A stretch of 64,000 nucleotides of DNA from Thioalkalivibrio thiocyanodenitrificans ARhD 1 (GTDB taxonomy: Bacteria > Pseudomonadota > Gammaproteobacteria > Ectothiorhodospirales > Ectothiorhodospiraceae). The number at the start of each line of letters is the position of its first letter. Positions within the stretch are counted from its first letter, which is position 1. Positions 8,554 through 61,477 of the stretch are shown here, piece after piece. The stretch spans positions 1,542,052 to 1,606,051 of the forward strand of contig NZ_KB900536.1 of NCBI RefSeq assembly GCF_000378965.1. The letters run 5' to 3'. Below the pieces are notes generated by a model. The model saw nothing but the letters and a program-made list of their open reading frames with translations, did not search any database and was not told where the DNA came from. A program made the position numbers and the translations under genes.

Positions 8554-8558
8554 AGGCT

Positions 8559-11030: not shown

Positions 11031-11054
11031 ATGTGGGAGGAAAAGCTCGTTATG

Positions 11055-11232
11055 CCACAGAGGGCACAGAGGTCACAGAGGAAAAACTCTCAGATCCACG
11101 TACCATGGCGTTTTTGCGCCTTGGCGAAAGCAAGGTCTTTGCCGTGACAGAGACAGGTTCATCCGCCGCAATGCCGCCGAGCCAAGGACCCCGTTCGATT
11201 CCTTTCCTCTGTGACCTCTGTGACCTCTGTGG
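11055..11232. repeat. Inverted 9-mer array between aroG and hisD
   Basis: Left arm: three direct 9-base units ending CACAGAGG. Right arm: three reverse-complement units CCTCTGTGA/G. They flank a core of about 124 bases containing GGCG-rich near-repeats around TTTTTGCGCC. The layout equals that of the heptamer elements but with period nine. The 218-base gap around it holds no gene that I can support. Confidence 0.8.
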
Positions 11233-11248
11233 CGCTCTTGAACCAGGT

Positions 11249-26707: not shown

Positions 26708-26752
26708 CCCAAATCCACCCTCTCTACATAGAAACTATCCAAGGAGCCCCCT

Positions 26753-27076: not shown

Positions 27077-27085
27077 GGTCCATCC

Positions 27086-27556: not shown

Positions 27557-27558
27557 CC

Positions 27559-29363: not shown

Positions 29364-29389
29364 ACCCGAGCAGAAACGGGACCCCCATC

Positions 29390-29785: not shown

Positions 29786-30054
29786 TGATCGAACGCGAAC
29801 TGACCATTATCAACCGCCTGGGCATGCATGCCCGGGCCGCCGCCAAATTCGTCAGCCTGGCCAGCCAGTTTCAGAGCGAGATCGAACTGGAGCGGGGCGG
29901 CCGGAGAGTCAACGGCAAGAGCATCATGGGCGTCATGATGCTGGCCGCGAGCCGCGGCTCCACCATTCGGCTGCTGGCCCGGGGTGACGACGAACAGTCC
30001 GCCATTGAGGCGCTGACAGAACTCGTCGAAACCCGGTTCGGAGAAGCGGAGTAA
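29785..30054 (+). CDS. HPr-like phosphocarrier protein (NPr)
   Basis: The 89-residue carrier has His15 in RLGMHARAAAKF (the enzyme I phosphorylation site) and Ser46 in NGKSIMGVMMLA (the HPr kinase site). Both control sites are therefore intact. No enzyme I gene follows; the next gene is on the other strand. TGATG overlap with the EIIA gene. Confidence 0.93.
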   Translation: MIERELTIINRLGMHARAAAKFVSLASQFQSEIELERGGRRVNGKSIMGVMMLAASRGSTIRLLARGDDEQSAIEALTELVETRFGEAE

Positions 30055-36853: not shown

Positions 36854-36997
36854 ATGAACCGATCCGACACCGAATATGCGATCTCAACCCACTGGGATGA
36901 TGCGGTGAGCCGGTGCGCCGCATCACTGAAAACCCCATCGCGCGACGGCGGGTTCGACTCGGCAACCAGCCCCGCCCCTGCGGGAGCGGCCCCATGA
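36854..36997 (+). CDS. Possible 47-residue small protein coupled to the PqqD-like gene
   Basis: A short frame (MNRSDTEYAISTHWDDAVSR then an Ala/Pro/Ser-rich end) stops inside the start of the PqqD-like gene with an ATGA overlap. That arrangement is typical of coupled genes. No good Shine-Dalgarno is visible and no family is recognised. It could be a leader peptide, a substrate of the neighbouring chaperone, or a chance frame. Confidence 0.3.
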   Translation: MNRSDTEYAISTHWDDAVSRCAASLKTPSRDGGFDSATSPAPAGAAP

Positions 36998-37278
36998 GCA
37001 CGGTGACCGGCCGTCCGGTGCGCTGCGCCGGCATCGAGGTGCACGACGTCGAGGACGGCGCCGTGATCTACCACCCCGGCACGGACGACGTGCATTTCCT
37101 CAACGACACCGCGCGCTGCGTGATGATGCTGTGCGACGGGCAACACGACGTCGCGGAAATGGACGAGGCGCTGGCGCGCATGTGCAATGCCCGCGCCGTA
37201 CCCGGCCTGACCGCCCCCATCCTGGAGCAGTTCGCCGCCGCGGGGCTGATCGAAGACGCCTCCGCGCGGACGCCGTGA
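36994..37278 (+). CDS. HPr-rel-A system PqqD family peptide chaperone
   Basis: The 94-residue protein is a PqqD-like winged-helix domain (VEDGAVIYHPGTDDVHFLNDTARCVMMLCDGQHDVAEMDEAL). This fold is used as a peptide recognition element in many ribosomal-peptide pathways. Together with an HprK-related kinase A and an NTP_transf_5 protein it forms the HPr-rel-A set named in protein family databases. The kinase is about 10 kb away on the other strand here. ATGA and GTGA overlaps join it to both neighbours. Confidence 0.85.
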   Translation: MSTVTGRPVRCAGIEVHDVEDGAVIYHPGTDDVHFLNDTARCVMMLCDGQHDVAEMDEALARMCNARAVPGLTAPILEQFAAAGLIEDASARTP

Positions 37279-38441
37279 ACACCCGGGGGCCGGATCCCGA
37301 ACTCGGACTGCTGCTCGCACTGGGGCGTTCGCGTCTCGCGGCGGACCGGGCAGTCGCCCTGGAGGCACGGCTGGCGCGGCCCTTCGACGCGCCCCGTCTG
37401 CATCGCCTGGCTGCCGAACACGGGCTGATGCCGCTGCTGTATCGCCATCTGGTCATGGAGCGGCCGGACGCCCTGCCCGCCGAAAGCGCCGCCGCCGTTG
37501 CGCACGAGTTCAGACAGCATGCCATCAGCCGCTGGCCCATGGCGCGGCGCCTGCGCGAACTCCTGCAGGTGCTGCGTGACGCCGGGGTGACGGCGATGCC
37601 CTACAAGGGGCCGGCGCTTGCGACGCAGCTGTTCGGCAACTACGCCATGCGCCAGTACGGCGATCTGGACATCCTGGTGCGGCCCTCGCAGGTCAGCGCG
37701 GCGGTGGAACGGCTGCAGGCCCACGGGCTGTCCGCCCCCCACGGCGTGCCCGCGGACTGGGACGGGTTCGTCCGGCGCACCCGCCACGACTACGCCATGC
37801 GCGACCGGCGCACCGGCACCCTGGTGGAGCTGCACTGGGGCCTGACCTACCGCTATCAGGGCTTCGGCGTCGATCCGGAGTGGCTGCTGAACGATCCGGT
37901 GGAGGTGGATTATCTCGGGGTACGCATCGCCTGCATGAATCCCTCCGCCCAGTTGCTGGCGCTGGCCGTGCATGGCGTCAAGCACCAGTGGGAGCGGCTG
38001 GGCTGGCTGGTGGACGTGGCGGAACTGATGTCCGGTCACGACCCGGACTGGGACTGGATCGACGCCCGGGCGCGGGCCATCGGCTTCACGCGTGCCTGGC
38101 GGTCCTCGCTGTTGCTGTGCGACACCATGCTCGGCCTGCCCGACACCGTGCCGATGTCCCAGGCACGGCGGGACCGCCCGGCCGCGCGCCTGGCCCGGCG
38201 CCTGGCCCGGGAGATCTCCCGTGACGATCCACGGCCCATCGGTTTTGTCACCCGGCTGCGCTTCGACCTGCTGGCCCGACCCGGGGCGGCGGCCAAGCTC
38301 GTCTACCTGTCCCGCCTGCTGACACTGCCCTCCGAGGCCGATCTCGCCGGGCGCAGGGTATCAACCGCCTGGGCGGCCACGTACGCCGTCACGCGCCCGC
38401 TGCGCCTGCTGCGCAAGATGCGGCGCCAGGGCCGTCGCTGA
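37275..38441 (+). CDS. NTP_transf_5 nucleotidyltransferase family protein
   Basis: The 388-residue protein has the family's MPYKGPALATQLFGNYAMRQYGDLDILVRPSQV, with the DxD metal motif, then LVELHWGL and VHGVKHQWERLGWLVDVAEL. Members occur beside HprK-like kinases and PqqD proteins, also in some lasso-peptide clusters with tailoring kinases. The reaction here is unknown; transfer of a nucleotide or phosphate to a modified peptide is a guess. GTG start, coupled to the PqqD-like gene. Confidence 0.88.
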   Translation: MNTRGPDPELGLLLALGRSRLAADRAVALEARLARPFDAPRLHRLAAEHGLMPLLYRHLVMERPDALPAESAAAVAHEFRQHAISRWPMARRLRELLQVLRDAGVTAMPYKGPALATQLFGNYAMRQYGDLDILVRPSQVSAAVERLQAHGLSAPHGVPADWDGFVRRTRHDYAMRDRRTGTLVELHWGLTYRYQGFGVDPEWLLNDPVEVDYLGVRIACMNPSAQLLALAVHGVKHQWERLGWLVDVAELMSGHDPDWDWIDARARAIGFTRAWRSSLLLCDTMLGLPDTVPMSQARRDRPAARLARRLAREISRDDPRPIGFVTRLRFDLLARPGAAAKLVYLSRLLTLPSEADLAGRRVSTAWAATYAVTRPLRLLRKMRRQGRR

Positions 38442-38445
38442 GGCC

Positions 38446-38940
38446 TCAGCGAACCGGCAGCGCGGACAGGTCGATGCGGTCGCCGGCCTGCACGCCGCGC
38501 ACCTCGAACCAGCCCCGGTTCATCTCCAGCGCGTACATGGCGGGCCCCCGGGATGCGTGGCGCTGCTCGGAGAGTGGTTCCATGCGGGCGATGTTGAGTA
38601 TCGTCCCGTCCGCGTCCATGAAGGCCACGGAGAGCGGGATACGGGTGTCTTTCATCCACATGACGATGCGCCGAGGCTGCCGGTACACGAACAGCATGCC
38701 GTGGTGCTCCGGCAGGTATGCGCGGTGCATCAGCCCGCGCCCCCGTGCCGAGCCGGTGGCGATCTCCACCGTGATGCGCTCTCCGCCCACCTGCAGTTCC
38801 ACCGTGGGCAGGGGCAGATAACGGTTGACAGCCTCCCAGACACGCACCGGCGTCTGCCACAGGGCCACGGAGGCGGCCAGTGTCAGCACGGCGGCCGCCA
38901 GGACAAGGGCGCAACCGGTCAGCAGGCCACGGCGTGTCAT
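38446..38940 (-). CDS. DUF192 family protein
   Basis: The 164-residue protein has an N-terminal hydrophobic anchor or signal (LLTGCALVLAAAVLTLAASVALW) and a DUF192 domain (GLMHRAYLPEHHGMLFVYRQPRRIVMWMKDTRIPLSVAFMD). Function unknown; the domain is a small beta barrel found in exported proteins. It converges with the nucleotidyltransferase gene five bases away. A start 17 codons upstream would run into the next gene. Confidence 0.85.
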   Translation of the reverse strand: MTRRGLLTGCALVLAAAVLTLAASVALWQTPVRVWEAVNRYLPLPTVELQVGGERITVEIATGSARGRGLMHRAYLPEHHGMLFVYRQPRRIVMWMKDTRIPLSVAFMDADGTILNIARMEPLSEQRHASRGPAMYALEMNRGWFEVRGVQAGDRIDLSALPVR

Positions 38941-38951
38941 GGGCGCCCGGC

Positions 38952-40733
38952 TCACGGCCGTGGCGACGCGGACGCGCACCGGTCCCGCCACGCACGGCGA
39001 AGCGCATCCTCCAGTTGTGCCACGAACAATGCGCCGTTGCCTGCCGGGGACGCCAGCAGGCGGTCACGCAGATCGCTGCGGATCCGGGCGAGCGCCGGCA
39101 GGTCCCGGGCATGGGCCACGGCCCTGCGCACGTAGTCGTCCTCGTCTACGGCGATCCACTCCCCGAGCCCCACCGCCCGGAGAAAGCTGGCCCCGTAGCG
39201 GCCGATCATCCCCTCGCGCCCCTTCAGGGTCAGCACCGGCACACCCATCCACAGTGTCTGGCAGGTGACCGTGCCGCCGTTGTGGGGGAACGGATCCAGG
39301 GCGATGTCCATGCTGCTCATCGCCCGGCAGTAGGTCTCGCGGGGCGCGCCACCCTCCAGCAGCAGCCGCGACGGATCGACGCCGGCCTGCGCGAAGGCCG
39401 CGCTCACCCGCCGGTGCACCGGGGGCAGATCCAGTTCCGGGGTCTTGAGCATCAGGCGGGCATCCGGCACGGCCCGCAGGATGCGCGCCCAGCAGTCGAC
39501 CACCACCGGGTTGACCTTGTCCAGCCGGTTGAAGCAGCCGAAGGTGACCTGCCCGTGCTCGAGCGCGGGCGGCGCGCCCACCGGCAGGGGGGGCATCAGG
39601 GGATCGAAGCACAGGTGGCTGTCCGGCAGTCTCAGAGGCCGTTCCACGTAGAGCGGCGCCTCGTCCTCCGGTATCAGGATGTCGTTGGCGATGATGCCGT
39701 CCATGGACGGCAGGCCGGTGGTGTTCATGAAACCCATCCAGGTGATCTGCAGCGCGGCGGGTCTGCGCGCGAACAGGCCCAGGCGGTGATGATCGGTGTG
39801 GCCCGAAAGGTCCACCAGGATATCGATCCCCGATTGCCGCACCAGCGCGGCGGCGGCCTCGTCGGACATCTCCCGGATGACGTGCCACGCGTCGGCCCGT
39901 CCCCTGAAGCGCTCCGTCACCCGGTCCGATGCGGGCGATGTATCGAAGCAGTGCACCTCGAAGGCGGCCCGGTCGTGATGGATGAGCAGGGGCTCGATGA
40001 AATGGGCCAGCGCATGCTCGCGGAAATCCCCGGAGACATAGCCGATGCGAACACGGCGCGCGGGGTCCGGATCACAGGGAGGCGCCGTGGGCAGTATCCC
40101 GGGCGGCGTCAGTTGCCTGCCGCAACGCCGCGCCAGGGCGAGGATCTCCGACTGACGGGCGTCCCGGGCGAAGTGCAGGCGATACAGCACCATGCTTAGC
40201 ACCTGTGACGTGGCGTCCGGCCGGGCGGCGGCCCGGCGGAACAGGTCCATCGCCTCGTCCACATGCCACAGCTTGATGAGCACCGCCCCCAGGTTGTGCA
40301 GTTGACCCGGATCCCCGGGGGACAGGGCCAGCGCCCGGCGGCAGCAATCGAGGGCCTGCTCGTGACGCCCGGCATCGAAATGCAGCGTGGCGAGATCCGC
40401 CCAGGCACCCACCAGCGTGTCGTCCAGTTCCACGGCGCGGCCGTAGGCGACCGCAGCGGCGTCCTCGTCGTCCAGGGCCAGGCAGACGCCGGCACGGGTC
40501 ATGTGCAGCATGGCCCAATCGGGCGCCTGCGCCAGGGCCTGTTCCAGGAGCCGGCGCGCTTCACCGAGCTGCCCCCGGGCGACGCGGATCGTGGCGAGAT
40601 TGTGCAGGGCGCGGGCATTGCCGGGCTCGTCGTCCAGCACCCGCCGGTAGATGCGCTCCGCCTGCGCCAGGTCCCCGGCGCGATGGATGCGCACCGCCTC
40701 GTCCAGGGCCGCGTCAGCCGCCGTCCCGGTCAT
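38952..40733 (-). CDS. TPR and OGT/SPINDLY-type glycosyltransferase (GT41)
   Basis: The 593-residue protein has about five TPR units (1-190) and a GT41 catalytic region: RIGYVSGDFREHALAHFIEPLL, DILVDLSGHTDHHRLGLFARRPAALQITWMGF, VTFGCFNRLDKVNPVV, then LDPFPHNGGTVTCQTLWMGVPVLTLKG. Enzymes of this type attach sugars to Ser/Thr of proteins. The Ser/Thr-rich proteins encoded upstream are possible targets. It overlaps the DUF6165 gene by 20 bases. Confidence 0.92.
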   Translation of the reverse strand: MTGTAADAALDEAVRIHRAGDLAQAERIYRRVLDDEPGNARALHNLATIRVARGQLGEARRLLEQALAQAPDWAMLHMTRAGVCLALDDEDAAAVAYGRAVELDDTLVGAWADLATLHFDAGRHEQALDCCRRALALSPGDPGQLHNLGAVLIKLWHVDEAMDLFRRAAARPDATSQVLSMVLYRLHFARDARQSEILALARRCGRQLTPPGILPTAPPCDPDPARRVRIGYVSGDFREHALAHFIEPLLIHHDRAAFEVHCFDTSPASDRVTERFRGRADAWHVIREMSDEAAAALVRQSGIDILVDLSGHTDHHRLGLFARRPAALQITWMGFMNTTGLPSMDGIIANDILIPEDEAPLYVERPLRLPDSHLCFDPLMPPLPVGAPPALEHGQVTFGCFNRLDKVNPVVVDCWARILRAVPDARLMLKTPELDLPPVHRRVSAAFAQAGVDPSRLLLEGGAPRETYCRAMSSMDIALDPFPHNGGTVTCQTLWMGVPVLTLKGREGMIGRYGASFLRAVGLGEWIAVDEDDYVRRAVAHARDLPALARIRSDLRDRLLASPAGNGALFVAQLEDALRRAWRDRCASASPRP

Positions 40734-41121
40734 CGTCGTAGGACTTTTCCTCGAACAGGGCGCTGCCCGCCAGCTCGTTGATGCGCCGCTTGCACAGGAA
40801 ACGCCGGTCGTTCAACTGATACACGGAGCGGGCCAGGGCAATGAATGCATCGCCGAAGTCCCGTGTGCGCTCGCAGGCGCGGATGGCATCCTCCACCTCC
40901 CAGAGCTGCTCGTTGATGGCACGCAGATCCCCCTGCACCGCCAGTGCCTCGGGCGACAGGCCGCCCGCGCGCGCGAGCACGGCGCGCAGGCGCTGCAGCT
41001 CGTCGCGCACATGCGCCAGCTTCTGCGGATCGGCGATGCGCTCGGCCTTGATCTCCAGGATGGTGATCTTGTCCACCAGCTCTCCCCAGGAGACCGGGAC
41101 CTCGGGGGTTGCCGCGCTCAT
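40714..41121 (-). CDS. DUF6165 family protein
   Basis: The 135-residue cytosolic protein is mainly helical: EVPVSWGELVDKITILEIKAERIADPQKLAHVRDELQ, then FIALARSVYQLNDRRFLCKRRINEL. Such proteins often lie between TPR and glycosyltransferase genes; their role is unknown. ATGA overlap with the large TPR gene and a 20-base overlap with the GT41 gene suggest a joint complex or pathway. Confidence 0.8.
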   Translation of the reverse strand: MSAATPEVPVSWGELVDKITILEIKAERIADPQKLAHVRDELQRLRAVLARAGGLSPEALAVQGDLRAINEQLWEVEDAIRACERTRDFGDAFIALARSVYQLNDRRFLCKRRINELAGSALFEEKSYDDDRDGG

Positions 41122-44100
41122 GCCGGCTCCCCGCGCGGAAACGGGGGGACATCGTCCTGGCCCACGGGCCAGATGGCAGGCGCGTCACCGCGCAGCACCG
41201 CCTCCAGGCGCGCCTGCACATCGGCCACCACCGGGTCCCAGTCGTTGGGCCGCGCCTGGCGAAACAGGCGGAGACTGGGATACCAGGGCGTATCGGCGCG
41301 CCCCGTCAGCCAGCGCCAGTCGGCCGGCCTGGACAACAGCACCCAGGCCGGCCGCCCCAGGGCGCCCGCAAGATGGGCAACGGCGGTGTCGATGGTGATG
41401 ACCAGGTCCAGCGACATCATCACCGCGGCCGTATCCACGAATGCGTCGCCGGCGCTGTCGAAATCCTCGCCCAGGGACTCGACCGGGCAGCCTGCCGGCA
41501 GGGCATCCAGCTGCTCCAGGCCATGGTGCTTCTGCAGGCTGATCAGCCGCACCCCGGGAAGTCCGGCCAGGGGGGCCAGCCGCTCCAGGGGGATCCACCG
41601 CCGGGTATTGCCGTGGTTGGGGTCCGTGTGCCAGACGATGCCGATGCGGAAACCGCCGCTGCCGATGCGATCGCCCCAGCGGCGCACCCGCCCGGCGTCG
41701 GCATGGATGTAAGGCACATCCGCGGGAATGGATTCGATCCCGGTAGCGTAGTAGCCGGGCAGACTGAGCAGGGAGACCTGGTAATCCGCCGGCGGGACCG
41801 CGTCCCGATACCCGAACACGCGCACGTTGTCGCCGAGCCACCAGGCCGTCCAGGTGATCGGATCCTGAAGCTGAAACAGGACCTCCCGGCATTCCCCGGC
41901 CAGCCGGCGGACATAACGCATGAAGTGCAGCGTATCGCCCAGCCCCTGTTCAGCGCGCACCAGGACTGCGGCATCGCCCAGGTCGGGCGGGACGCCCGCC
42001 TGGGTACGCGCATCCGGCAGCGAGCGCGGGCCGCGCAGTGCGCCCTCACGGCGGTCGTAGGCGGGCCAACCGCCTTCATAACGCCCCTGGCGCAACAGGA
42101 CCATGCCCAGGTTCATGTGGATCTGCCCGTTGTCGGGCGCCAGATCGGCGCTGCGCGTGAGGCTGTCGACGGCCTCCTGTTCTTCCCCCAGTTCCTGCAA
42201 GGCGAAACCCAGGTTCGTCTGCAGGGAAAGGGCGTCGGACGAGTGCGCCAGCCCGCGCCGGAAGCTGTCGACCGCTTCCCGGTAGCGCCCCGCGCCGGAA
42301 TGCACCAGGCCATCGACCTCGTGACGGCGCGCCGTGTCGGGCTCGAGTTCCGCCAGGCGGCCGGCCGCCTGCATGGCCTCATCGTGGCGCTCGGCCCGGG
42401 CGCATGCCAGGGCCAATGCGGCCCGGGCGGACGCGCAATCCGGCGACGCCTCCACCCACAGCCGGGCCGCGCACACCGCGTCTTCCGTTCGTTTCAGGGC
42501 ATCGAGCACGGCCAGCAGCAGGTGGTTGGCCGCGTCGTCGTCCGGCAGCATTCCGGTCAGGCGTTCGGCCACTTCCAGGGCATCGGCATGGCGCCGCTGT
42601 TCCATCAGCACGCCCGCGAGGTTCCGCCACACCGCCGCGTCCGCCGGATTGCGCCGGGCCAGCGCCCGCAACAGCCCCTCGGCTTCCGCATAACGCTTCA
42701 GTCGGGCGAGCAGGATCGCCAGGTTGACCTGCGCGGATGCGCTGTCCGGTGCGCGCTTGAGGGCCTCCCGAAACGCCGCCTCGGCCTCGACCCCGTCACC
42801 GCGCTCGCTGAGCAGGATACCCAGTTGTTCGTGCGGGGCGGCTTCCCCGGGGCTTCGCCGGATGGCCTCGCGCAATGCGCCCTCGGCCAGGGCGGACTTC
42901 CCCTGCTGCCGCGCAAGGATGCCCAGACGCAGGTGGGCCAGGCCGAAATCGGGATGCTCGGTGACCGCCGCCTCCAGCACGGGCAGGGCCTCGTCGGCGC
43001 GCCCCAGCTGCGCCAGGGCCCGGGCGCGGGTGAGCGCGGCTTCCCGGGGCGGTGATTCCAGGGCGTCCAGCGCCGTGAGCGCCTTCTCCGCGTGGCCGGT
43101 CTCCAGCATCGCCTCGGCAAGTTCCGCCTGCCACGCATCGCACGGGGACAGGGACAGGGCCCGATCCAGACAGCGCCATGCCAGCGAGGGTTCGCCCGCC
43201 GTGCGCAATGCCGCGCCCAGCAGCCGCCAGGCCGTGGCCGCGTCGACGCCCGGCCCCGCACCGGGGATCAACGGCAGCGCCGCCGCCGTCTCGCCCCGGC
43301 GCAGCCGCGCCATGGCGAGACGCAGGCGGAAGGTGCGATGCGTGGCGCCCTGCTCCTGCGCGAAGGCCTCGCACAGGGCGTCGGCTTCGTCGAAACGGCG
43401 CAGGGACTCCAGCAGATCGAGCTGTTGCAGGGCCCAGTCGGGATTGGCGGGGTCGAGCCGTCGGAGTTCCTCCAGCCGCCCCAGCGCCTGCGCGTGCTCG
43501 CCCCGTGCCTCGTGCAGGCGCGCGCGCAGCGCCATCGCCGGAGCCAGCCGCGGCTTGCGCGCGAGGGCGTGCTCGACATCCGCCAGCGCGCCCTCGGGTT
43601 CGCCGTCGATCAGGCGCAGCAGCGCGCGGTTGGCGCGCGCCTCGGCCAGCTCGGGATGCGCGTCGATGACGCGGTCCAGCGCGCGCCGGGCGCCCCGGAC
43701 GAGTCCGCAGCGATGCCGGATCAGGGCCTGCATGACCTGTCCTTCCGGGGCATCGGGGGCCAGCCGCAGCGCCTCCTCGCAAGCGGCGGCCGCCTCGTCG
43801 AGGCGGCCCTCGCGCAGCAGCCCGTGGGCCCGGTAGCGCCATGCCGCCGCCAGGTCGGGTCGCAGCGCGCGCGCCCGGTCACAGTCGGCAATCCCTTGCT
43901 CGCGCTGCCCCTGCACGATCAGCGCCAGCCCGTGGCCCGCCCGGGCATCGGCATGGTCGCCGTCCATGGACAGGGCATAGGCGTAGGCCGCCTGCGCCCC
44001 CCGCCAGTCTCCGGACTCGCGCAGGCACTCGCCGAGCAGATAGGTAGCATCGGGATCCCCGGGACGTGCGGCGCTCAGCTCGCGCAGGCGCGCCGCCGCC

Positions 44101-44288
44101 TCTTCCGGAAGGCCGCCATGACGGTCGAGAAGCGCGGTCACCAGGTCTTCGAGGGCGGCGGGCGCGTCCGGTCCCGCCCCGGAAACCGCTGCGAGGAGGC
44201 GGCACTCTATGCGCCCGAGGCCGGGCAGCAGGGGGCCGAGCCGTTGCAGCGGGTCGGGCGGGGGCGGCGCGCTCGGATGGACACTCAC
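41118..44288 (-). CDS. Large TPR protein with C-terminal GT9-like glycosyltransferase domain
   Basis: The 1056-residue cytoplasmic protein has some twenty TPR units over residues 30-730 (repeats such as HADARAGHGLALI and APHEQLGILLSERG). The C-terminal part is heptosyltransferase-like (AVLVRAEQGLGDTLHFMRYV; RIGIVWHTDPNHGNTRRWIPLE; VDTAAVMMSLDLVITIDTAVAHLAGALGRPAWVLLS). It may act on proteins or on a glycan. It has a GTG start without a good Shine-Dalgarno, behind a conserved hairpin. A decayed copy of its 5' end lies 1.28 kb upstream. Confidence 0.9.
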   Translation of the reverse strand: MSVHPSAPPPPDPLQRLGPLLPGLGRIECRLLAAVSGAGPDAPAALEDLVTALLDRHGGLPEEAAARLRELSAARPGDPDATYLLGECLRESGDWRGAQAAYAYALSMDGDHADARAGHGLALIVQGQREQGIADCDRARALRPDLAAAWRYRAHGLLREGRLDEAAAACEEALRLAPDAPEGQVMQALIRHRCGLVRGARRALDRVIDAHPELAEARANRALLRLIDGEPEGALADVEHALARKPRLAPAMALRARLHEARGEHAQALGRLEELRRLDPANPDWALQQLDLLESLRRFDEADALCEAFAQEQGATHRTFRLRLAMARLRRGETAAALPLIPGAGPGVDAATAWRLLGAALRTAGEPSLAWRCLDRALSLSPCDAWQAELAEAMLETGHAEKALTALDALESPPREAALTRARALAQLGRADEALPVLEAAVTEHPDFGLAHLRLGILARQQGKSALAEGALREAIRRSPGEAAPHEQLGILLSERGDGVEAEAAFREALKRAPDSASAQVNLAILLARLKRYAEAEGLLRALARRNPADAAVWRNLAGVLMEQRRHADALEVAERLTGMLPDDDAANHLLLAVLDALKRTEDAVCAARLWVEASPDCASARAALALACARAERHDEAMQAAGRLAELEPDTARRHEVDGLVHSGAGRYREAVDSFRRGLAHSSDALSLQTNLGFALQELGEEQEAVDSLTRSADLAPDNGQIHMNLGMVLLRQGRYEGGWPAYDRREGALRGPRSLPDARTQAGVPPDLGDAAVLVRAEQGLGDTLHFMRYVRRLAGECREVLFQLQDPITWTAWWLGDNVRVFGYRDAVPPADYQVSLLSLPGYYATGIESIPADVPYIHADAGRVRRWGDRIGSGGFRIGIVWHTDPNHGNTRRWIPLERLAPLAGLPGVRLISLQKHHGLEQLDALPAGCPVESLGEDFDSAGDAFVDTAAVMMSLDLVITIDTAVAHLAGALGRPAWVLLSRPADWRWLTGRADTPWYPSLRLFRQARPNDWDPVVADVQARLEAVLRGDAPAIWPVGQDDVPPFPRGEPA

Positions 44289-44321
44289 TGGGATTGGGTG
44301 TGGACGATCAGGGGCATGTGT

Positions 44322-44358
44322 TCACCCATGCGCCGGCAAATGCCCGGCGCATGGGTGA
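44322..44358 (-). promoter_or_regulatory. Perfect 15-bp stem-loop between beta-protein 2 and the TPR gene
   Basis: TCACCCATGCGCCGG pairs fully with its complement across a 7-base loop. No T-run follows on the minus strand, so it is more likely an attenuator, RNA-processing or 3'-end-protecting structure than a full terminator. The duplicate copy keeps the stem with a compensatory A-T to T-A change. Confidence 0.75.
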
Positions 44359-44371
44359 TGTCGGGGTGCGA

Positions 44372-44875
44372 TCAGATCGGGGTGCAGGCGGGCAGGCCGC
44401 GTACCCAGGTGAAGCTGTCGGAGCCGAAATACGAATGGATTTGATGGCCTCCCGAATAGAGCACCAATCCGTCCAGGTACTGATAGCCAGACAAGGTATC
44501 GGGATTCAAGGAGAAATATCCGGAAAACCCACCCGACGTGGCCGACAGGGCCGTGGCCCCCGTGAACGTCTGGCTGGACCCATCAGAAAAGGTCGCTCTC
44601 GTAACACCTGGCTCGTCGATCGACAGCTGCCCGGTCGGCATGAAGGAGACATAAGACGACACCCCGTCGTAACTGCCCCCGGCCACGGTCATCGTGAAAT
44701 CGGGCACCGTCCCCACCGAGGTGCCGCCGACATACCGGGCACCCTCCCGCAGCCACATCACCCCCGAGAAGGTATCGCTGCCGTCGACATGGTTGAAGTC
44801 GGTGCAGAACCCGTTCCAGCGGTACTCAAGGCTCTGAGTGCCCGTCGTTCCCAGGAAGGCATAGAATGTCGGCAT
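44372..44875 (-). CDS. Beta-rich Ser/Thr/Gly-rich protein, copy 2 (unknown family)
   Basis: I do not recognise this 167-residue protein. It begins MPTFYAFLG, has the segment YRWNGFCTDFNHVDGSDTFSG and ends SFTWVRGLPACTPI. Two Cys, in FCTDF and in LPACTP, are shared with copy 1 and could form a disulfide. There is no signal peptide or membrane helix. A predicted all-beta character is inferred from alternating hydrophobic and Thr/Ser/Gly residues. GGGGGAAC serves as Shine-Dalgarno. It pairs with the Tat-leader peptide gene 107 bases upstream. Confidence 0.75.
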   Translation of the reverse strand: MPTFYAFLGTTGTQSLEYRWNGFCTDFNHVDGSDTFSGVMWLREGARYVGGTSVGTVPDFTMTVAGGSYDGVSSYVSFMPTGQLSIDEPGVTRATFSDGSSQTFTGATALSATSGGFSGYFSLNPDTLSGYQYLDGLVLYSGGHQIHSYFGSDSFTWVRGLPACTPI

Positions 44876-44982
44876 CGTTCCCCCTTGATCTCAAAGATCC
44901 GGTCTGCCGGCACCCGGCTGACCCGCGTGGTTGCGTTCGTGCGATTCAGACACCGACCGCACGCTCACGGCCGGTGATCCGA

Positions 44983-45201
44983 TCAGCCAATGTTGTTGTC
45001 CGAGCTCCCGCCGAACCCGTCCAGAATCCCGCCGTTGACGGTCTGCGCCTTGGCGGCACTCAGCAGGATCCCCTGGCGCGACAGGGTCTCCATGGCAGGC
45101 ACGGCCAGCACCGCGCCGCCCGCCGCCTTCATGAACCGGCGCCGCTGCGGATCCGCGGCCCGGGACGATCCCCGTGGATTGTCCTGGTTGTCGTGTTCCA
45201 T
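44983..45201 (-). CDS. Twin-arginine-leader small peptide, copy 2
   Basis: This 72-residue protein has PQRRRFMKAAGGAVLAVPAM (18-37), a twin-arginine-like n-region and hydrophobic stretch, then AAKAQT (49-54), which looks like a signal-peptidase site. Only about 20 residues would remain, ending GFGGSSDNNIG. Residues 15-59 equal copy 1 except at residue 48, while both ends differ. A GGGGGAACG Shine-Dalgarno is present. It may be a modified, exported peptide; the HprK-related kinase, PqqD-like protein and glycosyltransferases nearby are candidate modifiers. Confidence 0.75.
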   Translation of the reverse strand: MEHDNQDNPRGSSRAADPQRRRFMKAAGGAVLAVPAMETLSRQGILLSAAKAQTVNGGILDGFGGSSDNNIG

Positions 45202-45302
45202 CGTTCCCCCTGATGTTGTGGCAGGTGGTCGGCGCCCGCGCGGCGCGCGGACCCTATCTTCGGGTGCTTTTCTGTGAAACCTATCCCAGTTCTCACGATG
45301 GG

Positions 45303-45570
45303 TCAACCGGATTCGAGGGTTTCCTCCAGCGGCCCCGCCCGCAGGGCGAAACGGGGCTTCGGGGGCCAGAACGCAACGCCTCCTCACAACCGGCGACCGC
45401 CATGGCGCCAGAGGAGCGCGGCCACCACCTGTTCGAGGGACGCGGGCGCGTCCGGGCCACCCCGCAAACGGACGCGATGAGGCGGCGTTCGATGGGCCCC
45501 AGGCGCGGCAGCAGGAGGCCGACCCGTTGCAGCGGATCAGGCGGGGCGGCGCGCTCGGATGGGCACTCAC
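45303..45570 (-). pseudogene. Duplication scar: remnants of the TPR gene 5' end and the HprK-related kinase 3' end
   Basis: Positions 45379-45570 align with the start of the TPR gene from its GTG (MSAHPSAPP against MSVHPSAPP). They carry at least two one-base deletions and an in-frame stop. Positions 45303-45365 encode RFALRAGPLEETL and a stop, matching CFALRVGPLEDTL at the end of the HprK-related kinase. The order fits the junction of a tandem duplication whose inner kinase and TPR copies were lost. This explains the gene-poor 450 bases here. Confidence 0.85.
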
Positions 45571-45604
45571 TGGGGTTGGGTGTGAACGATCGGTTGCATG
45601 CGGT

Positions 45605-45640
45605 TCACCCTTGCGCCGGAAAATGCCCGGCGCAAGGGTG
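45605..45640 (-). promoter_or_regulatory. Perfect 15-bp stem-loop downstream of beta-protein 1
   Basis: TCACCCTTGCGCCGG pairs fully across a 6-base loop. It is the duplicate of the hairpin after beta-protein 2. Base 7 of the stem is T rather than A, and its partner has changed to match, so pairing is preserved. Confidence 0.75.
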
Positions 45641-45654
45641 ATGTCATGGTGCGA

Positions 45655-46134
45655 CTAGAATGGGGTGCAGGCGGGTAGATTGCGTACCCAGGTGAAGCTG
45701 CTGCTTGCATCAGCGCCTTGCGATCCCTCTGGCGAGGCATACAGCACATCTCCCCAGGCGACGACGTAACCGCTGGTCATGGTATCGGCATTCATGAATG
45801 TTCCACTGAATGTCGCACTCGTCACGGTAAGGGACGTGGCGCCCGTGAAGGTGCCTCGCGTGACGTCCGGTTCGGTAATCGTCATGCCCCCGACTGCGTC
45901 AAACGTGGCAAAGGAGGCACCCTCGTCATAGCTGCCCATGGTAAGGGTCAGCGGAAAATCCGGCAATGCGGTGTCCGACGTACCGTTGACCAACCGTACG
46001 CCGTCCCTCAACCACATCGTGCCCGAAAACGTATCCTGGCCCTCCACGTGGTTGAAGTCTGTGCAGAATCCGTCCCAGCGATAAACGATGTCAAACGGCG
46101 ATGAATTTCCAAGGTAAAAGCTGAATGTTGGCAT
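45655..46134 (-). CDS. Beta-rich Ser/Thr/Gly-rich protein, copy 1 (unknown family)
   Basis: This 159-residue paralogue of the downstream protein begins MPTFSFYLG, has YRWDGFCTDFNHVEGQDTFSG and MWLRDGVRLVNGTS, and ends SFTWVRNLPACTPF. Ends and the two Cys are kept; the middle has diverged strongly and the length differs by eight residues. Roughly a quarter of residues are Ser or Thr, which would suit O-glycosylation by the GT41 enzyme of the operon (inference). The ATG follows GGGGGAACA; an earlier in-frame start overlaps the intergenic region. Confidence 0.75.
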   Translation of the reverse strand: MPTFSFYLGNSSPFDIVYRWDGFCTDFNHVEGQDTFSGTMWLRDGVRLVNGTSDTALPDFPLTLTMGSYDEGASFATFDAVGGMTITEPDVTRGTFTGATSLTVTSATFSGTFMNADTMTSGYVVAWGDVLYASPEGSQGADASSSFTWVRNLPACTPF

Positions 46135-46222
46135 TGTTCCCCCCTGACCCCGTACAGGCCGGTCGCCGGGCACCGTCCCGGAACCACCGATGCGCTGTCA
46201 TTGTTCATGCGGCGCTGAACGA

Positions 46223-46441
46223 TCAGACCTCTGTCTCTGTCGTACTCCCGCCGATCCCGTCCATGATCCCGCCGTTGACGGTCTGGGCCTTGGCGGCACG
46301 CAGCAGGATCCCCTGGCGAGACAGGGTCTCCATGGCAGGCACGGCCAGCACCGCGCCGCCCGCTGCCTTCATGAACCGGCGCCGCTGCGGATCCGCGGCT
46401 TTCGCCGGTTCCCGCGGGCTGTCTTCGTTGTCGTATTCCAT
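46223..46441 (-). CDS. Twin-arginine-leader small peptide, copy 1
   Basis: The 72-residue protein has the same leader as copy 2 (QRRRFMKAAGGAVLAVP at 19-35, AAKAQ at 49-53). Its acidic N-terminus (MEYDNEDSP) and tail (GIGGSTTETEV) differ. The tail carries Ser66, Thr67, Thr68 and Thr70, possible kinase targets. AGGGGGC precedes the ATG. It lies 123 bases after the HprK-related kinase gene on the same strand. Confidence 0.75.
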   Translation of the reverse strand: MEYDNEDSPREPAKAADPQRRRFMKAAGGAVLAVPAMETLSRQGILLRAAKAQTVNGGIMDGIGGSTTETEV

Positions 46442-46564
46442 GGAGCCCCCTGTTACGGATGTCGCAATATCGTCATCATCACGGCGCCGCATGCTGGACC
46501 CGGGCGGGCGAGCGCGGCCCGCTGAATCCTCACACCAGAAAACTAGACCACCCTGTGTGACGGG

Positions 46565-47428
46565 TCAAACGGAATCGAGCCCCGAGAGGGTGCGCCGCAC
46601 GAGGTCCAGGGTGTCCTCCAGCGGCCCCACCCGCAGGGCGAAACACGGCGTACCGCGCACCAGGGCACAGACATCCCGGGCCTGCCGCCCGATGTCGGGG
46701 GCCTGGTCCAGGGTCTGGCACATGAGGCGCTTGACCATCTCGATCTGCGCGATCGACTCGATGCGCGGGGGCCCGTCGAATCCGGGCTCCAGATGCAGGA
46801 TGGCCGCCGGGCGGGCCCGCACGCTGCGCCAGGCATGGCCCAGGTCCTCGGGATCCACGGGGTAGTACTTCACGCCGTTCCAGTGCTGCAGCAGCGGCTT
46901 GCGCCGGCATACGGCCGCCACCTCGGGCAGATGCGCCAGGGTGCCGGGCTTCACGTGCAGGGGGCGCGGGAAGGTGATCGCGAGGCCGTCGCGGGTCAGG
47001 ACATACTCGTCGCAGTGGAAATCCGCTCCGGCCAGCAGCAGCCGGGCGAGCAGTGTCGTCTTGCCCGCCCCGCGGTCGCCGGTGAACAAGGCCAGCCGTC
47101 CATCCAGCGTCGCCGCGCCACAGTGCAGCGTGGTGTCCCCGGCATGCAGGTCGCGGGCGTAGCGGGTGAGCACGATGTGGATATGGGCCAGGGCCACGTC
47201 GGTGCAGCACAGCCGCCTGGGCCTGCCCTCGCCCATGTCGACCTGCAGCCCGTTGCCCGCCGGGACCACGCGGACATTCACGGTCCGCTCGACCGGCAGG
47301 TCGTCCCCGGCCCTGACCACCACATGCTGCAGGGGCTCCAGCAGGGCGGGCGGGTCGGCGTCGAGCCGGACGGCCAGGCCCAGGAGCCTGAAGTGATCCG
47401 TCAGCGGTGGCGGTTCATGGGTGGACAT
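46565..47428 (-). CDS. HprK-related kinase A
   Basis: The 287-residue protein resembles the C-terminal half of HPr kinase. Walker A is GDRGAGKTT (about 117-125), the Asp motif FHCDEYV stands in place of ADDA, and HVKPG and CFALRVGPLEDTL follow. The HPr-kinase family signature around EVRG is not kept. HprK-like kinases of paeninodin-type lasso clusters phosphorylate a C-terminal Ser of the precursor peptide; by analogy this enzyme may act on the Tat-leader peptides just downstream. It heads the minus-strand operon. Confidence 0.85.
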   Translation of the reverse strand: MSTHEPPPLTDHFRLLGLAVRLDADPPALLEPLQHVVVRAGDDLPVERTVNVRVVPAGNGLQVDMGEGRPRRLCCTDVALAHIHIVLTRYARDLHAGDTTLHCGAATLDGRLALFTGDRGAGKTTLLARLLLAGADFHCDEYVLTRDGLAITFPRPLHVKPGTLAHLPEVAAVCRRKPLLQHWNGVKYYPVDPEDLGHAWRSVRARPAAILHLEPGFDGPPRIESIAQIEMVKRLMCQTLDQAPDIGRQARDVCALVRGTPCFALRVGPLEDTLDLVRRTLSGLDSV

Positions 47429-57159: not shown

Positions 57160-57546
57160 TCATCCGCGCCGCGCATCCAGGCTCCAGGCACCGGCGCCCC
57201 GTGCGCCCACATACAGCAGCCCGCCGGTGATGGCCAGGTTCTTCATGAACAGGATCTGCTGCATGGAATCGCCGAAATCGAGATGGAAGATCAGGGTGGC
57301 GAGCAGCGTGAAGGCCGCCAGCAGCAGGGCCGCCCAGCGGGTCCACAGGCCCGCGATCAGCGCCAGGGCACCGCCCACTTCCAGCAGTATCACCAGGGGA
57401 AGCAGCAGGCCCGGCACACCGAACGCCGCCATGTACGCCTGGGCACCCTGGAAACCGCCGATCTTGTCCAGGCCTGCCAGCAGGAACATCACCGCCAGCA
57501 GCACGCGTCCCGCCAGCATTGCAATGGGTTGAATCGTGTTCATCAT
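57160..57546 (-). CDS. DoxX family membrane protein
   Basis: The 128-residue protein has four hydrophobic helices (AGRVLLAVMFLLAGLDKIGG; LLLPLVILLEVGGALALIAGL; AALLLAAFTLLATLIF; ILFMKNLAITGGLLYVG). DoxX proteins occur in redox and thiol-stress operons; biochemical function is unsettled. It shares the intergenic region with the divergent LysR gene and is probably cotranscribed with the reductase gene downstream. Confidence 0.9.
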   Translation of the reverse strand: MMNTIQPIAMLAGRVLLAVMFLLAGLDKIGGFQGAQAYMAAFGVPGLLLPLVILLEVGGALALIAGLWTRWAALLLAAFTLLATLIFHLDFGDSMQQILFMKNLAITGGLLYVGARGAGAWSLDARRG

Positions 57547-58579: not shown

Positions 58580-58870
58580 TCGTGCAGCCGACCACGTCCA
58601 CCACCCGCTCGACAAACGGGGGTGCCTCCGCGGTCCTTTCGGCTGATAATGTGGCGGGACAGGAATCTTTTGCGCCGGGGTGCCCGAGAGAACGCCCATG
58701 CATATACGAGGAGAGGATTCGATGATTCGGATGTCGTGGCGCACCCGCGGCTCCGCCACGACGACCGGCAGCGCCGGACGGATGCACACGGGCATCGGGC
58801 GGCGGATGCCCCGTATGCCGGCGTGTCGCCTGCACGACACCGTGCCCGCACCCCGGGAGCCCATGCAGCA

Positions 58871-61477
58871 GTGAACCACGACAGCCAGCAGGATGCGGGC
58901 AAGACGGATACAGGCGCATTTGAAGCCGATCCAGCCACCGGGGATCGGGCTTCCGCCGTCGCGCGGCGTCCCATTCTGCCCGGATGGCTGCGGGGTCAGA
59001 CGGGCCAGCGCCGCGCCATCGTCATCGTGTTCGTGCTGGTGCTGCTGGGCCTGTCCTATGCCCAGTGGCCCCGTGGCCCGGACCTGCTTGCCTATGACCT
59101 GGCCGCGCGCCTCATTCCCGCCGAAGCGGGCCTTGCCGGCGTGGCACTCGTGGATACGGGCCCCGGCCCCGTTGACTATGATGTCCTCGCCCGTGCCGTG
59201 GACATCCTGGCCGCCCAGGGCGTGAACCGGCTCGGCATCTACCTGCCCCTGCATCAGCGTCAGTCCCCGCCAGACATGCAGTCCCTGATCCTGGAGTCCG
59301 ACCGGGGCGCGCTCGGCGCGCCCGCCCCGGCATGGCTGGCACGCCTGGACCGGGATGCCCGCCTTGCCGACGCCCTGCGCCGCCACGGGGGGGCCGTACT
59401 GGCCGCCTTTCCGGACGTCACCCGTGACACGGCCCGTGGTGGGACGCTGAGCCGGATCAATGCGGCACCCATACCCTGGTATGCCCGGCCGTGGCTTGCC
59501 GTGTTCATGCGAACACCCGGTCCGGCCCGCCTGGAGACGCCCTTGCAGACCCCCCTGCCGGATCTCGCCAGCGTCGCGCGTGACGTCGGTGCCGCGCTGC
59601 CTGTCACCGCGCCCACCGGGGTCAGGCTCGCCGTCAACGAACCCGGCGGGCCCTGGGCCGGGTTTCTGCTGCCCCTGTTGAACCACGGAGACGCCGCGAC
59701 CGCGCAGATCAGGCTCGAACCCGGCCGCGGGGTGCGCCTGGGCAATGAACTGCGCCCCCTCGGACCGGACCTGTCGGCCCATCCGATCCCCCCCCGCCAG
59801 GATCCCCGCGGGAACGGTCTGCTGGTGCACGACCTGGATACGCTGCTGGCCGGCAACGCCAGCCTGGAAGGACGCACCGTCATCCTCGGGCGCGCTGACA
59901 ACCGGGCCCCATCGGTGAATCTGGGCGCGGGCGTGACACTGCCGGACGCCGTCTGGCAGACCTATGCCCTGGGCAGCCTGATGGACGAACGCGCCATATG
60001 GGTGCCCGCCTGGTTCCACGGCATCGAGCGGGTGCTGCTGGTACTGGTGGGGCTCTACCTGTTGGCCCTGCCCCTGCAACTGACCAGCCGCACCGCGGGC
60101 CTCCTGCTGTCACTCCTGATCGTGGTGGTGGTGTTCAACGCCGGCATCCTGATGCTGCTGGTGCACCACATGTGGTTACCGGTTACCCTGCCGGTCCTCG
60201 CCCTGCTGGCGGGTCACGGACTGTTATGGGCCTGGCTGCGCCACACGGACATCCTGTCCCGGGACCGCCGCGATGCCTCGGAGGCCCATTATCAGCTGGG
60301 CAGCCTGTTGCGATCCCAGGGACAGCTTGAGCCGGCCTTTGATCACCTGCGCCGCGTGCGCAATGTGGACGAGCCCCTTTGCCAGCAGCTGTACCAGCTT
60401 GGCCATGACCTGGTGCGCCGCCGCCAGTATGCCCGGGCCATGGCCGTGTACACGCATCTGGACACCGTCTCCCCCCGTTACCGGGACGTGCCGGTACGCA
60501 TCCTGCGTTTGCGCGGCGTGTCCAAACCGGCCCGCAAGCGCCTGGGACAGGATCTCACCAGGATGGAGAACACCCTGATTGTCGATGGCGACACCCTGGA
60601 GAAACCCACCCTCGGACGCTACCAGATCGAGCGCCAGCTGGGGCGTGGCTCCATGGGCATCGTCTACCTGGGCGTGGATCCCAAGATCAGCCGCAAGGTG
60701 GCGATCAAGACCCTGGCCCTGAATCAGGAGTTCGAGACGGAACTGCTCGAGCAGGTGAAGATGCGCTTCTTCCGGGAGGCGGAGGCCTCCGGCCGCCTCA
60801 ACCACCGCAACATCGTCACCATCTACGACGTGGGCGAGGAACACGACCTGGCCTTCATCGCCATGGACTACCTGGAGGGCACGGCCCTGGACGCCTACAC
60901 ACGGGCCGACAACCTGCTGCCCGTGGGCGAGGTCCTGGAGGTATGTGCCCAGGTGGCGGACGGGCTCGCATATGCCCATGGCCAGCAGGTGATCCATCGG
61001 GACGTCAAGCCCGCCAACGTCATCTATGACCGCGACAAGGGTTCGGTCACCATCACCGACTTCGGCATTGCCTGCCTGACGGACAACAACCGCACGCGCA
61101 CCGGCACCATCCTCGGTACGCCCGCCTTCATGTCGCCGGAGCAGGTCGCCGGCAAGCCCGTGGACGGCCGCTCGGACCTGTTCTCCCTGGGCGTAACCCT
61201 CTACCAGCTGCTGTGCGGCCGGCTGCCCTTCAACGCCGAAACCATGGCGAGCCTGGTCTACCAGATCACGCAGACCCGCCACCAGTCCATCTCGGAGATA
61301 CGCCCCGAACTGGGCCCCCTGGTGGCCCTGATCCTCAACCGCGCCCTTGAAAAGGATCCCGCACGGCGATACCAGGACGGCGCCGACCTGGCGAAGGCCT
61401 TGCGCGAATGCGCCGTGGCGCTGAAGCGCGGCCCGAAGCCCGGGCAATACAGCAGCCGGCACGCCATGACGCCCTGA
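58871..61477 (+). CDS. CHASE2-domain sensor serine/threonine protein kinase
   Basis: The 868-residue membrane kinase has one N-terminal helix (AIVIVFVLVLLGLSYA), a periplasmic CHASE2 sensor (about 65-360), three more helices (about 380-455) and a TPR-like linker. The C-terminal kinase is of PknB type: GRGSMGIVYLG, VAIKTL, HRDVKPANV, DFGIA and TPAFMSPEQV, all catalytic residues present. The start is uncertain: this GTG was chosen because upstream codons are unlike any domain, but an ATG at 58622 is in frame. The 291 bases before it show no other gene. Confidence 0.88.
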   Translation: MNHDSQQDAGKTDTGAFEADPATGDRASAVARRPILPGWLRGQTGQRRAIVIVFVLVLLGLSYAQWPRGPDLLAYDLAARLIPAEAGLAGVALVDTGPGPVDYDVLARAVDILAAQGVNRLGIYLPLHQRQSPPDMQSLILESDRGALGAPAPAWLARLDRDARLADALRRHGGAVLAAFPDVTRDTARGGTLSRINAAPIPWYARPWLAVFMRTPGPARLETPLQTPLPDLASVARDVGAALPVTAPTGVRLAVNEPGGPWAGFLLPLLNHGDAATAQIRLEPGRGVRLGNELRPLGPDLSAHPIPPRQDPRGNGLLVHDLDTLLAGNASLEGRTVILGRADNRAPSVNLGAGVTLPDAVWQTYALGSLMDERAIWVPAWFHGIERVLLVLVGLYLLALPLQLTSRTAGLLLSLLIVVVVFNAGILMLLVHHMWLPVTLPVLALLAGHGLLWAWLRHTDILSRDRRDASEAHYQLGSLLRSQGQLEPAFDHLRRVRNVDEPLCQQLYQLGHDLVRRRQYARAMAVYTHLDTVSPRYRDVPVRILRLRGVSKPARKRLGQDLTRMENTLIVDGDTLEKPTLGRYQIERQLGRGSMGIVYLGVDPKISRKVAIKTLALNQEFETELLEQVKMRFFREAEASGRLNHRNIVTIYDVGEEHDLAFIAMDYLEGTALDAYTRADNLLPVGEVLEVCAQVADGLAYAHGQQVIHRDVKPANVIYDRDKGSVTITDFGIACLTDNNRTRTGTILGTPAFMSPEQVAGKPVDGRSDLFSLGVTLYQLLCGRLPFNAETMASLVYQITQTRHQSISEIRPELGPLVALILNRALEKDPARRYQDGADLAKALRECAVALKRGPKPGQYSSRHAMTP

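Follow-up and report, generated by a model that had tools for sequence, protein, structure and literature searches.

A Tat-leader mini-peptide cassette with HprK-like kinase, PqqD and NTP_transf_5 genes in Thioalkalivibrio thiocyanodenitrificans: a candidate relative of phosphopeptide RiPP systems

We analysed a 64,000-nucleotide stretch of the genome of Thioalkalivibrio thiocyanodenitrificans ARhD 1 (contig NZ_KB900536.1, positions 1,542,052 to 1,606,051; hereafter the window, whose own numbering is used throughout). At 36994-47428, it holds a cassette in which two mini-peptides with leaders of the twin-arginine translocation (Tat) type stand with genes for an HprK-like kinase, a PqqD-like protein and an NTP_transf_5 protein. 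We consider it somewhat probable that this cassette makes and exports a modified Tat-leader peptide, which would be a Tat-leader relative of the phosphopeptide RiPPs (ribosomally synthesized and post-translationally modified peptides) of the linear polyphosphorylated peptide (LPP) and paeninodin types. We observed the gene order and its recurrence, leader-like sequence, a Tat-leader link in loci of the HPr-rel-A system (TIGR04352, TIGR04353 and NTP_transf_5) and the family assignments; from these we infer binding, modification, export and function. The cassette is recurrent but rare, and is a new Tat-leader variant of the type that combines HprK, a RiPP recognition element (RRE) and an NTP transferase. 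The Tat-leader open reading frame (ORF) present in most sampled HPr-rel-A loci is a larger result than the window cassette itself.

Mini-peptides and enzymes of the cassette

The kinase arm of the cassette lies on the minus strand in the order kinase, Tat peptide B, partner B, Tat peptide A, partner A, TPR-GT9, DUF6165, TPR-GT41 and DUF192, where TPR-GT9 and TPR-GT41 are tetratricopeptide-repeat (TPR) proteins with glycosyltransferase-like regions. The PqqD-like and NTP_transf_5 genes form a plus-strand arm convergent to it. Mini-peptides B (46223..46441, minus strand) and A (44983..45201, minus strand) have 72 residues each and are 78% identical. Both begin with a charged stretch of 18-19 residues, continue with QRRRFMKAAGGAVLAVPAMETLSRQGILL and reach a cleavage site predicted between AKA and Q, which leaves 20 residues (QTVNGGIMDGIGGSTTETEV in B and QTVNGGILDGFGGSSDNNIG in A). 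By reading, both carry RRRFMK, a hydrophobic stretch and an AxA site; RRRFMK fits the twin-arginine consensus RRxFLK. The original prediction had described twin-arginine-like leaders, about 20 residues after the cleavage site and tails of GGSTTETEV (B) and GGSSDNNIG (A), and our reading of both ORFs agreed with it. A TatC gene is present in the genome (235.4 bits, cut-off 132.7; the search was for TatC alone). The peptides look like real genes, because a homologue occurs in another genus (67% identity over 36 residues for B and 47% over 59 for A) and because codons 1-65 of the two copies differ with a dN of 0.077 against a dS of 0.216.

That homologue lies in G011, a 'Chromatiales bacterium' assembly of another genus than the window (contig JAQVJI010000085.1), which carries NTP_transf_5, PqqD, kinase, a GT2-like gene on the other strand, Tat peptide, a partner-like ORF, TPR-GT9, DUF6165 and TPR-GT41. 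All but the GT2-like gene and the partner-like ORF, seven genes in total, are clear homologues of window genes (tblastn, 43-67% identity). In the congener G043, one contig holds PqqD, NTP_transf_5, DUF192, TPR-GT41, DUF6165 and the final 164 TPR-GT9 residues (90-96%), and a second holds an epimerase and the first 80 kinase residues; the peptide region is unassembled, because one contig ends within TPR-GT9 and the other within the kinase. None of the other three genomes of the genus gave a kinase match. In G369, which belongs to another family, PqqD, kinase and a 62-residue Tat-like peptide stand in a row, with divergent NTP_transf_5 and DUF192. The peptide is followed by 322 nt to the contig end, and no partner lies directly behind it, because the ORF there is on the opposite strand. 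Thus, a Tat-like mini-peptide, PqqD and NTP_transf_5 accompany the window-type kinase at each of the three loci whose flanks can be read (window, G011 and G369). The co-occurrence of peptide and kinase across genomes, proposed as a check when the locus was first described, was not refuted by these loci or by the enrichment beside HPr-rel-A kinases reported below. The cassette is also larger than was then stated: TPR-GT9, DUF6165 and TPR-GT41 recur with it.

The C-terminal part of the peptides varied between these genomes, with tails of QSAGGGQGGGIGP in G011 and QSAPTPGPAPGP in G369. The precursors end in V and G in the window and in P in G011, none of them Ser. Phosphorylation at the C-terminal GGSS or GGST tail, as originally suggested, was not supported, a C-terminal Ser being absent in both G011 and G369. 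By contrast, A-Q-[ST] at the predicted cleavage site was common to all four peptides (AKAQT, AKAQT, ARAQS and AHAQS), with T, T, S and S after AxA-Q. The Ser or Thr just after AxA-Q (Thr54 in the window) is the likeliest candidate for the phosphorylation site.

Searches with the peptide sequence gave nothing convincing beyond the window and G011 in the family, class and 84,980-species sets, and nothing in plasmids. Near-seed scores were reached in 2 of 47 family genomes and, among 369 class genomes, in the genome of the window only. The scan of 84,980 species returned one true relative, the G011 contig; it can miss relatives because it works through two short peptide patterns. We set aside its second hit (L043), in whose neighbourhood no such kinase was seen by eye. 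We attributed the matches in nine other family genomes (E 0.0018-0.0088) and in eight other class genomes (E 3.4e-5 to 9.8e-4) to generic Tat signals as a group, not hit by hit.

The kinase (46565..47428, minus strand; 287 residues; 55% identical to its G011 orthologue) has a Walker A motif (GDRGAGKT), His102 and Asp140-Glu141. The PqqD-like, RRE-type protein (36994..37278, plus strand; 94 residues; 45% identity to G011) and the NTP_transf_5 protein (37275..38441, plus strand; 46% identity), whose start overlaps the PqqD stop (GTGA), are both present as predicted and lie 8-9 kb from the kinase. The locus had been assigned to the HPr-rel-A set, with a gene for HprK-related kinase A followed on the same strand by two 72-residue peptides. 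The gene order stands, as does the NTP_transf_5 membership (PF14907, 170.1 bits; cut-off 31.2), whereas strict membership of the other two enzymes does not: the kinase scored 28.3 bits against TIGR04352 (cut-off 200; G011 orthologue 38.4) and the PqqD protein 27.3 bits against TIGR04353 (cut-off 35; G011 24.4), so the name HprK-related kinase A applies only loosely. In a tree carrying a long-branch warning, the window kinase grouped with those of G011 and G369 (support 100/92), outside the clade of 80 HPr-rel-A rows (98/98), and it represents a separate branch rather than HPr-rel-A proper.

Both the window and the G011 kinase have a D-E pair after the P-loop. A pattern located the P-loop in 52 of the 80 over-cut-off kinases, of which 44 also showed the pair and 8 did not; the remaining 28 gave no P-loop match. 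The structure model of the window kinase (pLDDT 41.2) was too poor for a fold search, and comparison with the PDB by sequence gave weak obscurin matches only. About 17 kb from the HprK-like kinase, at 25211-30054, is the classical set of rpoN, ptsN, true HprK (TIGR00679, 334.6 bits), RapZ and HPr. The same genome has a second set of HprK-like kinase, PqqD and NTP_transf_5 (L020, G000 C1:1900000-1918000; features 4229-4423 and 4622-4948 on the minus strand, 7393-8954 and 10860-12209 on the plus strand). Two small peptides lie near this set; by reading, KLDTxRLLGFRLxGA and ITVKLGSKIG are common to both. The PqqD protein of the set best fitted lasso-type models, under their cut-offs.

Tat-leader genes beside HPr-rel-A kinases

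Kinases matching TIGR04352 (E up to 1e-15) occurred in 53 of 369 class genomes (40 over the cut-off) and in 63 of 299 phylum genomes (50 over the cut-off), the two samples overlapping. We studied 52 of the 54 class matches (G362 and G147 omitted) and 40 phylum loci. Of the 50 phylum rows over the cut-off, 3 duplicated class rows and 7 were omitted (G567, G583, G544, G559, G548, G575 and G494), which left 40 for study; the 15 phylum rows below it were left out. The sampled HPr-rel-A loci are among L022, L063, L069-L110 and L120-L159. The phylum loci are not independent, because four of the 40 belong to the window's class and a small number of families supplies many of the others.

By pattern search, 69 of the 80 over-cut-off loci (class 37/40, phylum 32/40) have a Tat-leader ORF on the kinase strand at 0.5-2 kb upstream, against 1 of 80 for the mirror interval downstream on the same strand (class 0/40, phylum 1/40). 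Two loci of the 80 are not counted among the 69, namely L094, where a Tat protein missed by the pattern was seen by eye, and L102, which is truncated at a contig end. The ORF lay upstream on the opposite strand in 3/40 class and 6/40 phylum loci, downstream on the opposite strand in 5/40 and 2/40, and on the same strand 3.5-5 kb away in 2/40 and 3/40 (class) and 2/40 and 1/40 (phylum). The 1.5-kb same-strand upstream bin held 41 Tat-leader ORFs in the class set, versus 0-7 in other bins, and 33 in the phylum set, versus 0-5. Among the 12 below-cut-off class loci, the ORF was upstream in 4 and in none of the mirror downstream, opposite-strand upstream or opposite-strand downstream positions. 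A further peptide, in L062 (outside the 80 loci), was found by eye after a pattern miss. Where the gene order was read, it was usually Tat protein, PqqD, kinase and NTP_transf_5.

These counts bear on the possibility, in our view quite unlikely, that the Tat-like peptide and the enzymes are mere neighbours in an envelope or polysaccharide locus, with the kinase, PqqD and NTP_transf_5 acting on something else. The surroundings lend it some weight: by eye, DUF6165 stands among glycosyltransferase-like genes in four other family genomes, with no such kinase seen in those stretches, and asparagine-synthase-like and GT4-like genes, also named by eye, lie near 26 and 20 of the 80 HPr-rel-A loci, respectively. 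Independent neighbours are unlikely, however, because the place and strand of the Tat ORF are kept in 69 of 80 loci versus 1 of 80 for the mirror.

None of 45 Tat-leader proteins and peptides scanned (37 from over-cut-off class loci, five others and three of the window family) matched NCBIfam, and in Pfam four matched only PF10518, the generic Tat signal. The Tat proteins form at least three sequence clusters (18, 12 and 5 loci), one of them with a CT-S-SG--SGN-S...PGYW pattern. Across 74 proteins (42 from the class, made up of 37 over and four below the cut-off plus L062; 32 from the phylum), mature parts of about 6 to 230 residues stood under a similar leader, and a loose [PA]-x-x-x-[TSMA]-[LVIMAYF] leader motif occurred in 62. 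The Tat proteins of HprK loci thereby appear to follow a conserved-leader, variable-core pattern. Two below-cut-off loci hold further small proteins of this kind. In L067 (3866-4153, opposite strand), a small Tat-like protein that contains KWTRPVVDSVVLPAHAET and a long run of Thr lies near the HprK kinase, with an apparent second copy beside it; in L117 (11137-11885, minus strand), two similar Tat-leader mini-proteins (RRDFLRKTxYxAPAILTL) adjoin the kinase.

Partner proteins and the duplicated unit

Each mini-peptide is followed by a Ser/Thr-rich protein, as had been predicted: partner B (45655..46134, minus strand; 159 residues) contains 24.5% Ser+Thr and partner A (44372..44875, minus strand; 167 residues) 24.6%. 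The two are 55% identical, have no leader by reading and gave no Pfam or NCBIfam match; partner B has CTDF and a C-terminal Cys. A partner-like ORF occupies the same place in G011 (155 residues, MP start, CTDF, 26.5% Ser+Thr, 23% identity in a MAFFT alignment), and two Cys are present in all three versions. The similarity of this counterpart is weak: it scored 11.7 bits against the partner profile, versus at most 6.9 for 500 shuffles. With default filters, nothing among the ORFs of other loci passed E 1, and sequence searches for the partner gave no match in plasmids or in the PDB.

Peptide and partner were copied together in a tandem repeat of about 1.28 kb, whose boundaries fall within the 3' end of the kinase gene and the 5' end of TPR-GT9. 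Leftover pieces of both genes lie between the copies (45313..45600, minus strand), the kinase 3'-end piece at 45313-45357 and the TPR-GT9 5'-end piece at 45397-45600. In 40-nt steps, identity between the repeats was 92-100% in the leader, 72-92% in the hairpin described below and the flank beyond it, mostly 41-81% in the partner and 40-54% in the stretch before the peptide. Leader codons 20-53 differed at 4 of 102 nt (dS 0.11) and the last seven peptide codons at 13 of 21; the partner copies had 60% DNA identity, with a dN of 0.44 and a dS of 1.23. Because the leader is near-identical and the tail and partner are strongly diverged between copies, leader and cargo have different histories: the leader appears to have been homogenised or constrained, and the tail and partner diversified or replaced. 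A hairpin of about -33 kcal/mol lies 3' of each partner (directly 3' of B at 45605..45641, minus strand, -32.9 kcal/mol, z -9.5; 3' of A at 44322..44358, minus strand, -33.3 kcal/mol, z -6.9), with one compensatory U-A/A-U change between the copies. We do not call these hairpins terminators, because they have no U-run.

The duplicated unit can also be read with the roles exchanged, which we regard as unlikely: the partner would be the modified product and the mini-peptide its Tat carrier on a hitchhiker route, with the 20-residue tail docking and the kinase and glycosyltransferases acting on the Ser/Thr-rich partner. The partner lies directly behind each peptide and was duplicated with it as a unit, and the peptide end and the partner are far more diverged between copies than the leader, as expected if tail and partner match. 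The lack of a leader on the partner and its two Cys in all three versions also fit, and TPR-GT enzymes can glycosylate exported proteins in the cytoplasm, as FlmG does (PMC7591256). By contrast, G369 has no partner directly after the peptide, the G011 tail is merely 13 residues long, 7 of them glycine, and the partner structure model (pLDDT 39.5) was too poor for a fold search. The partner profile was convincing only in its own genome among the 369 class genomes searched with it, with one weak match at E 0.007, though 53 of these genomes have TIGR04352-type kinases. A profile of the two partners ranked the G011 counterpart first among 17,181 ORFs of other loci, at E 0.31. These two search results count against our preferred reading as well, as does the failure of the partner as a detached or split Tat mature domain, an idea rejected at an hhalign probability of 0.1%.

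The minus-strand arm continues with TPR-GT9 (41118..44288; 1056 residues; 43% identity to G011), whose TPR match is above the cut-off and whose C-terminal glycosyltransferase-9-like region is just below it (PF01075, 20.9 bits; cut-off 22). Next come the DUF6165 protein (40714..41121, minus strand; 135 residues; PF19662, 38.1 bits, cut-off 27; 59% identity), TPR-GT41 (38952..40733, minus strand; 593 residues), with its O-GlcNAc-transferase-like GT41 region (PF13844, 162 bits, cut-off 25; 46% identity), and the DUF192 protein (38446..38991, minus strand; PF02643, 100.3 bits), which adjoins NTP_transf_5 also in G043 and G369 and was not found in the G011 contig. By reading, similar GGGG-rich stretches lie directly before the ATG of all four small genes. 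A promoter scan of the locus found none; by eye, unproved, TTGACC-N17-TAGGTT and TTGACC-N17-TAGTTT stand upstream of the two peptides. Elsewhere in the window, a DoxX protein (57160-57546) weakly matched the HvfX RiPP maturation family (36.9 bits, cut-off 80), and a Ser/Thr protein kinase domain (PF00069, 176 bits) lies at the C-terminal end of a 951-residue protein (58622-61477), which also matches CHASE2 and TPR weakly.

Proposed route and relation to known systems

In the route that we propose for a modified, exported mini-peptide, the PqqD-like protein would be the RRE and would bind the 72-residue precursor by its leader in the cytoplasm. The HprK-like kinase would phosphorylate a Ser/Thr of the mature part once or more, most likely at the residue after AxA-Q, and NTP_transf_5 may add a sugar or nucleotide to the phosphate, by analogy with PsmN, which is needed for hexoses on phosphorylated Ser in pseudomycoidin (PMC9266682). 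Export would be through Tat and leader removal by signal peptidase I, two tasks that fall to a dedicated exporter and a dedicated leader peptidase in LPP and lasso systems. The leaderless partner may be a larger product of the same unit, O-glycosylated by TPR-GT41 or TPR-GT9, and might cross the membrane in a complex with the Tat peptide.

Several further points weigh against this reading. The peptides scored below the PF10518 cut-off of 22.7 bits (17.6 for B and 17.7 for A), so their Tat assignment rests on motif and layout. A leader profile of the HPr-rel-A type placed them at E 0.12 in their own genome (ranks 2-3 of 8); not being significant there, this leader-only profile was rejected as proof of membership. 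By reading, the leaders have no [Y/W]xxP RRE motif. Because AxA-Q is common in signal peptides, A-Q-[ST] as the modification site is only a lead. For the window, the wide Tat link serves as an analogy, because its kinase and PqqD score under the HPr-rel-A cut-offs and the kinase stands outside the clade; direct support in the kinase's own branch comes from three loci only. By pattern, a Tat ORF was absent from 8 of the 12 class loci below the cut-off and from 11 of the 80 loci over it, and the second kinase set of this genome had none either. The peptide search in G043, with its broken contigs, found none. Finally, the residue after AxA-Q in the window is Thr, while an S3T change abolished phosphorylation in the LPP system, and deletion of lppN changed nothing there (PMC13381572).

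LPP clusters, from Bacillota, combine a discrete RRE, an HprK-like kinase, an NTP transferase and a signal-peptidase-like protease (PMC13381572). The window shares with them a discrete RRE, HprK-like kinase and NTP transferase in one cluster with no cyclase, its PqqD being an RRE by family and its kinase assigned by a sub-cut-off match. Also alike are one to three short precursors, with a conserved N-terminal and a variable C-terminal part, and polysaccharide-type surroundings. LPP phosphorylation falls on Ser3 of a core starting AQSNWK, the modified Ser there also following the leader (AQS). The window differs in its Tat-type leader, added partner protein, DUF6165 and TPR glycosyltransferases and in having no YxxP leader motif; by reading, the LPP motif YxxPxVLxHQxIxFETxxS was absent from peptides A and B and from the G011 peptide. 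Unlike LPP clusters, the genes at 36994-47428 showed neither an SpI-like signal peptidase nor an MsbA-like exporter in Pfam and NCBIfam scans, and the host relative G011 is named as Chromatiales rather than Bacillota.

HPr-rel-A loci have the same three kinds of enzyme and, in most of those sampled, a Tat-leader ORF. In the window, however, the Tat gene lies downstream of the kinase rather than upstream of PqqD, the mature part is shorter than most, and the further genes differ. The paeninodin and pseudomycoidin lasso pathways likewise use an HprK-like kinase on a precursor peptide (PMC9266682), whereas the window has no cyclase, no C-terminal Ser and a Tat-type leader. That the locus is a lasso pathway or an ordinary HPr-rel-A locus is very improbable and largely refuted. 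HprK kinase, PqqD and NTP_transf_5 are common to both, but the kinase and PqqD fall short of the HPr-rel-A cut-offs, the precursors lack the terminal Ser and the three matches to the asparagine-synthase family (PF00733) in the genome all lie outside the window; B2-type protease was not searched by profile. Because the window has no asparagine-synthase-type cyclase, this is not a lasso pathway, as the original prediction had held.

FlmG is a 596-residue cytoplasmic O-glycosyltransferase of Caulobacter flagellin that joins TPR and GT-B parts (PMC7591256). The 593-residue TPR-GT41 protein is similar in layout, layouts and not sequences being compared, although no flagellin gene is among the cassette genes. 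RREs paired with precursors that bear Sec-type signal peptides have been reported for DUF2063/DUF2282 (PMC12710340); there, too, an RRE-type protein reads a RiPP precursor that includes a signal peptide, with Sec instead of Tat and with other enzymes. A signal peptide within a RiPP precursor is therefore not new. Among open-licence papers, preprints excluded, we found none on RiPP precursors with a Tat signal, and no relevant paper on HPr-rel-A, TIGR04352, TIGR04353, HprK-related kinase A or PF14907, on HprK-related kinase combined with PqqD and a nucleotidyltransferase, or on HprK combined with twin-arginine and precursor peptide.

A broader proposal, which we hold possible but doubtful, is that HprK-kinase/PqqD/NTP_transf_5 cassettes across Proteobacteria make a large class of phosphorylated products, as yet undescribed, that are capped with a sugar or nucleotide and exported through Tat, with the Tat signal doubling as RiPP leader and general export replacing a dedicated exporter and peptidase. 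The window would then be a split form, its mini-peptide being modified and towing a glycosylated partner through Tat. The enzymes of HPr-rel-A are named in NCBIfam, and we know of no substrate for them; the Tat-leader link provides a concrete candidate substrate for a cassette whose kinase occurs in the 53 class and 63 phylum genomes counted above. If our reading is true, phosphopeptide RiPP-like products would have a route of export in Tat, and Tat-leader proteins such as those scanned, with no family beyond a generic Tat signal, would gain a pathway.

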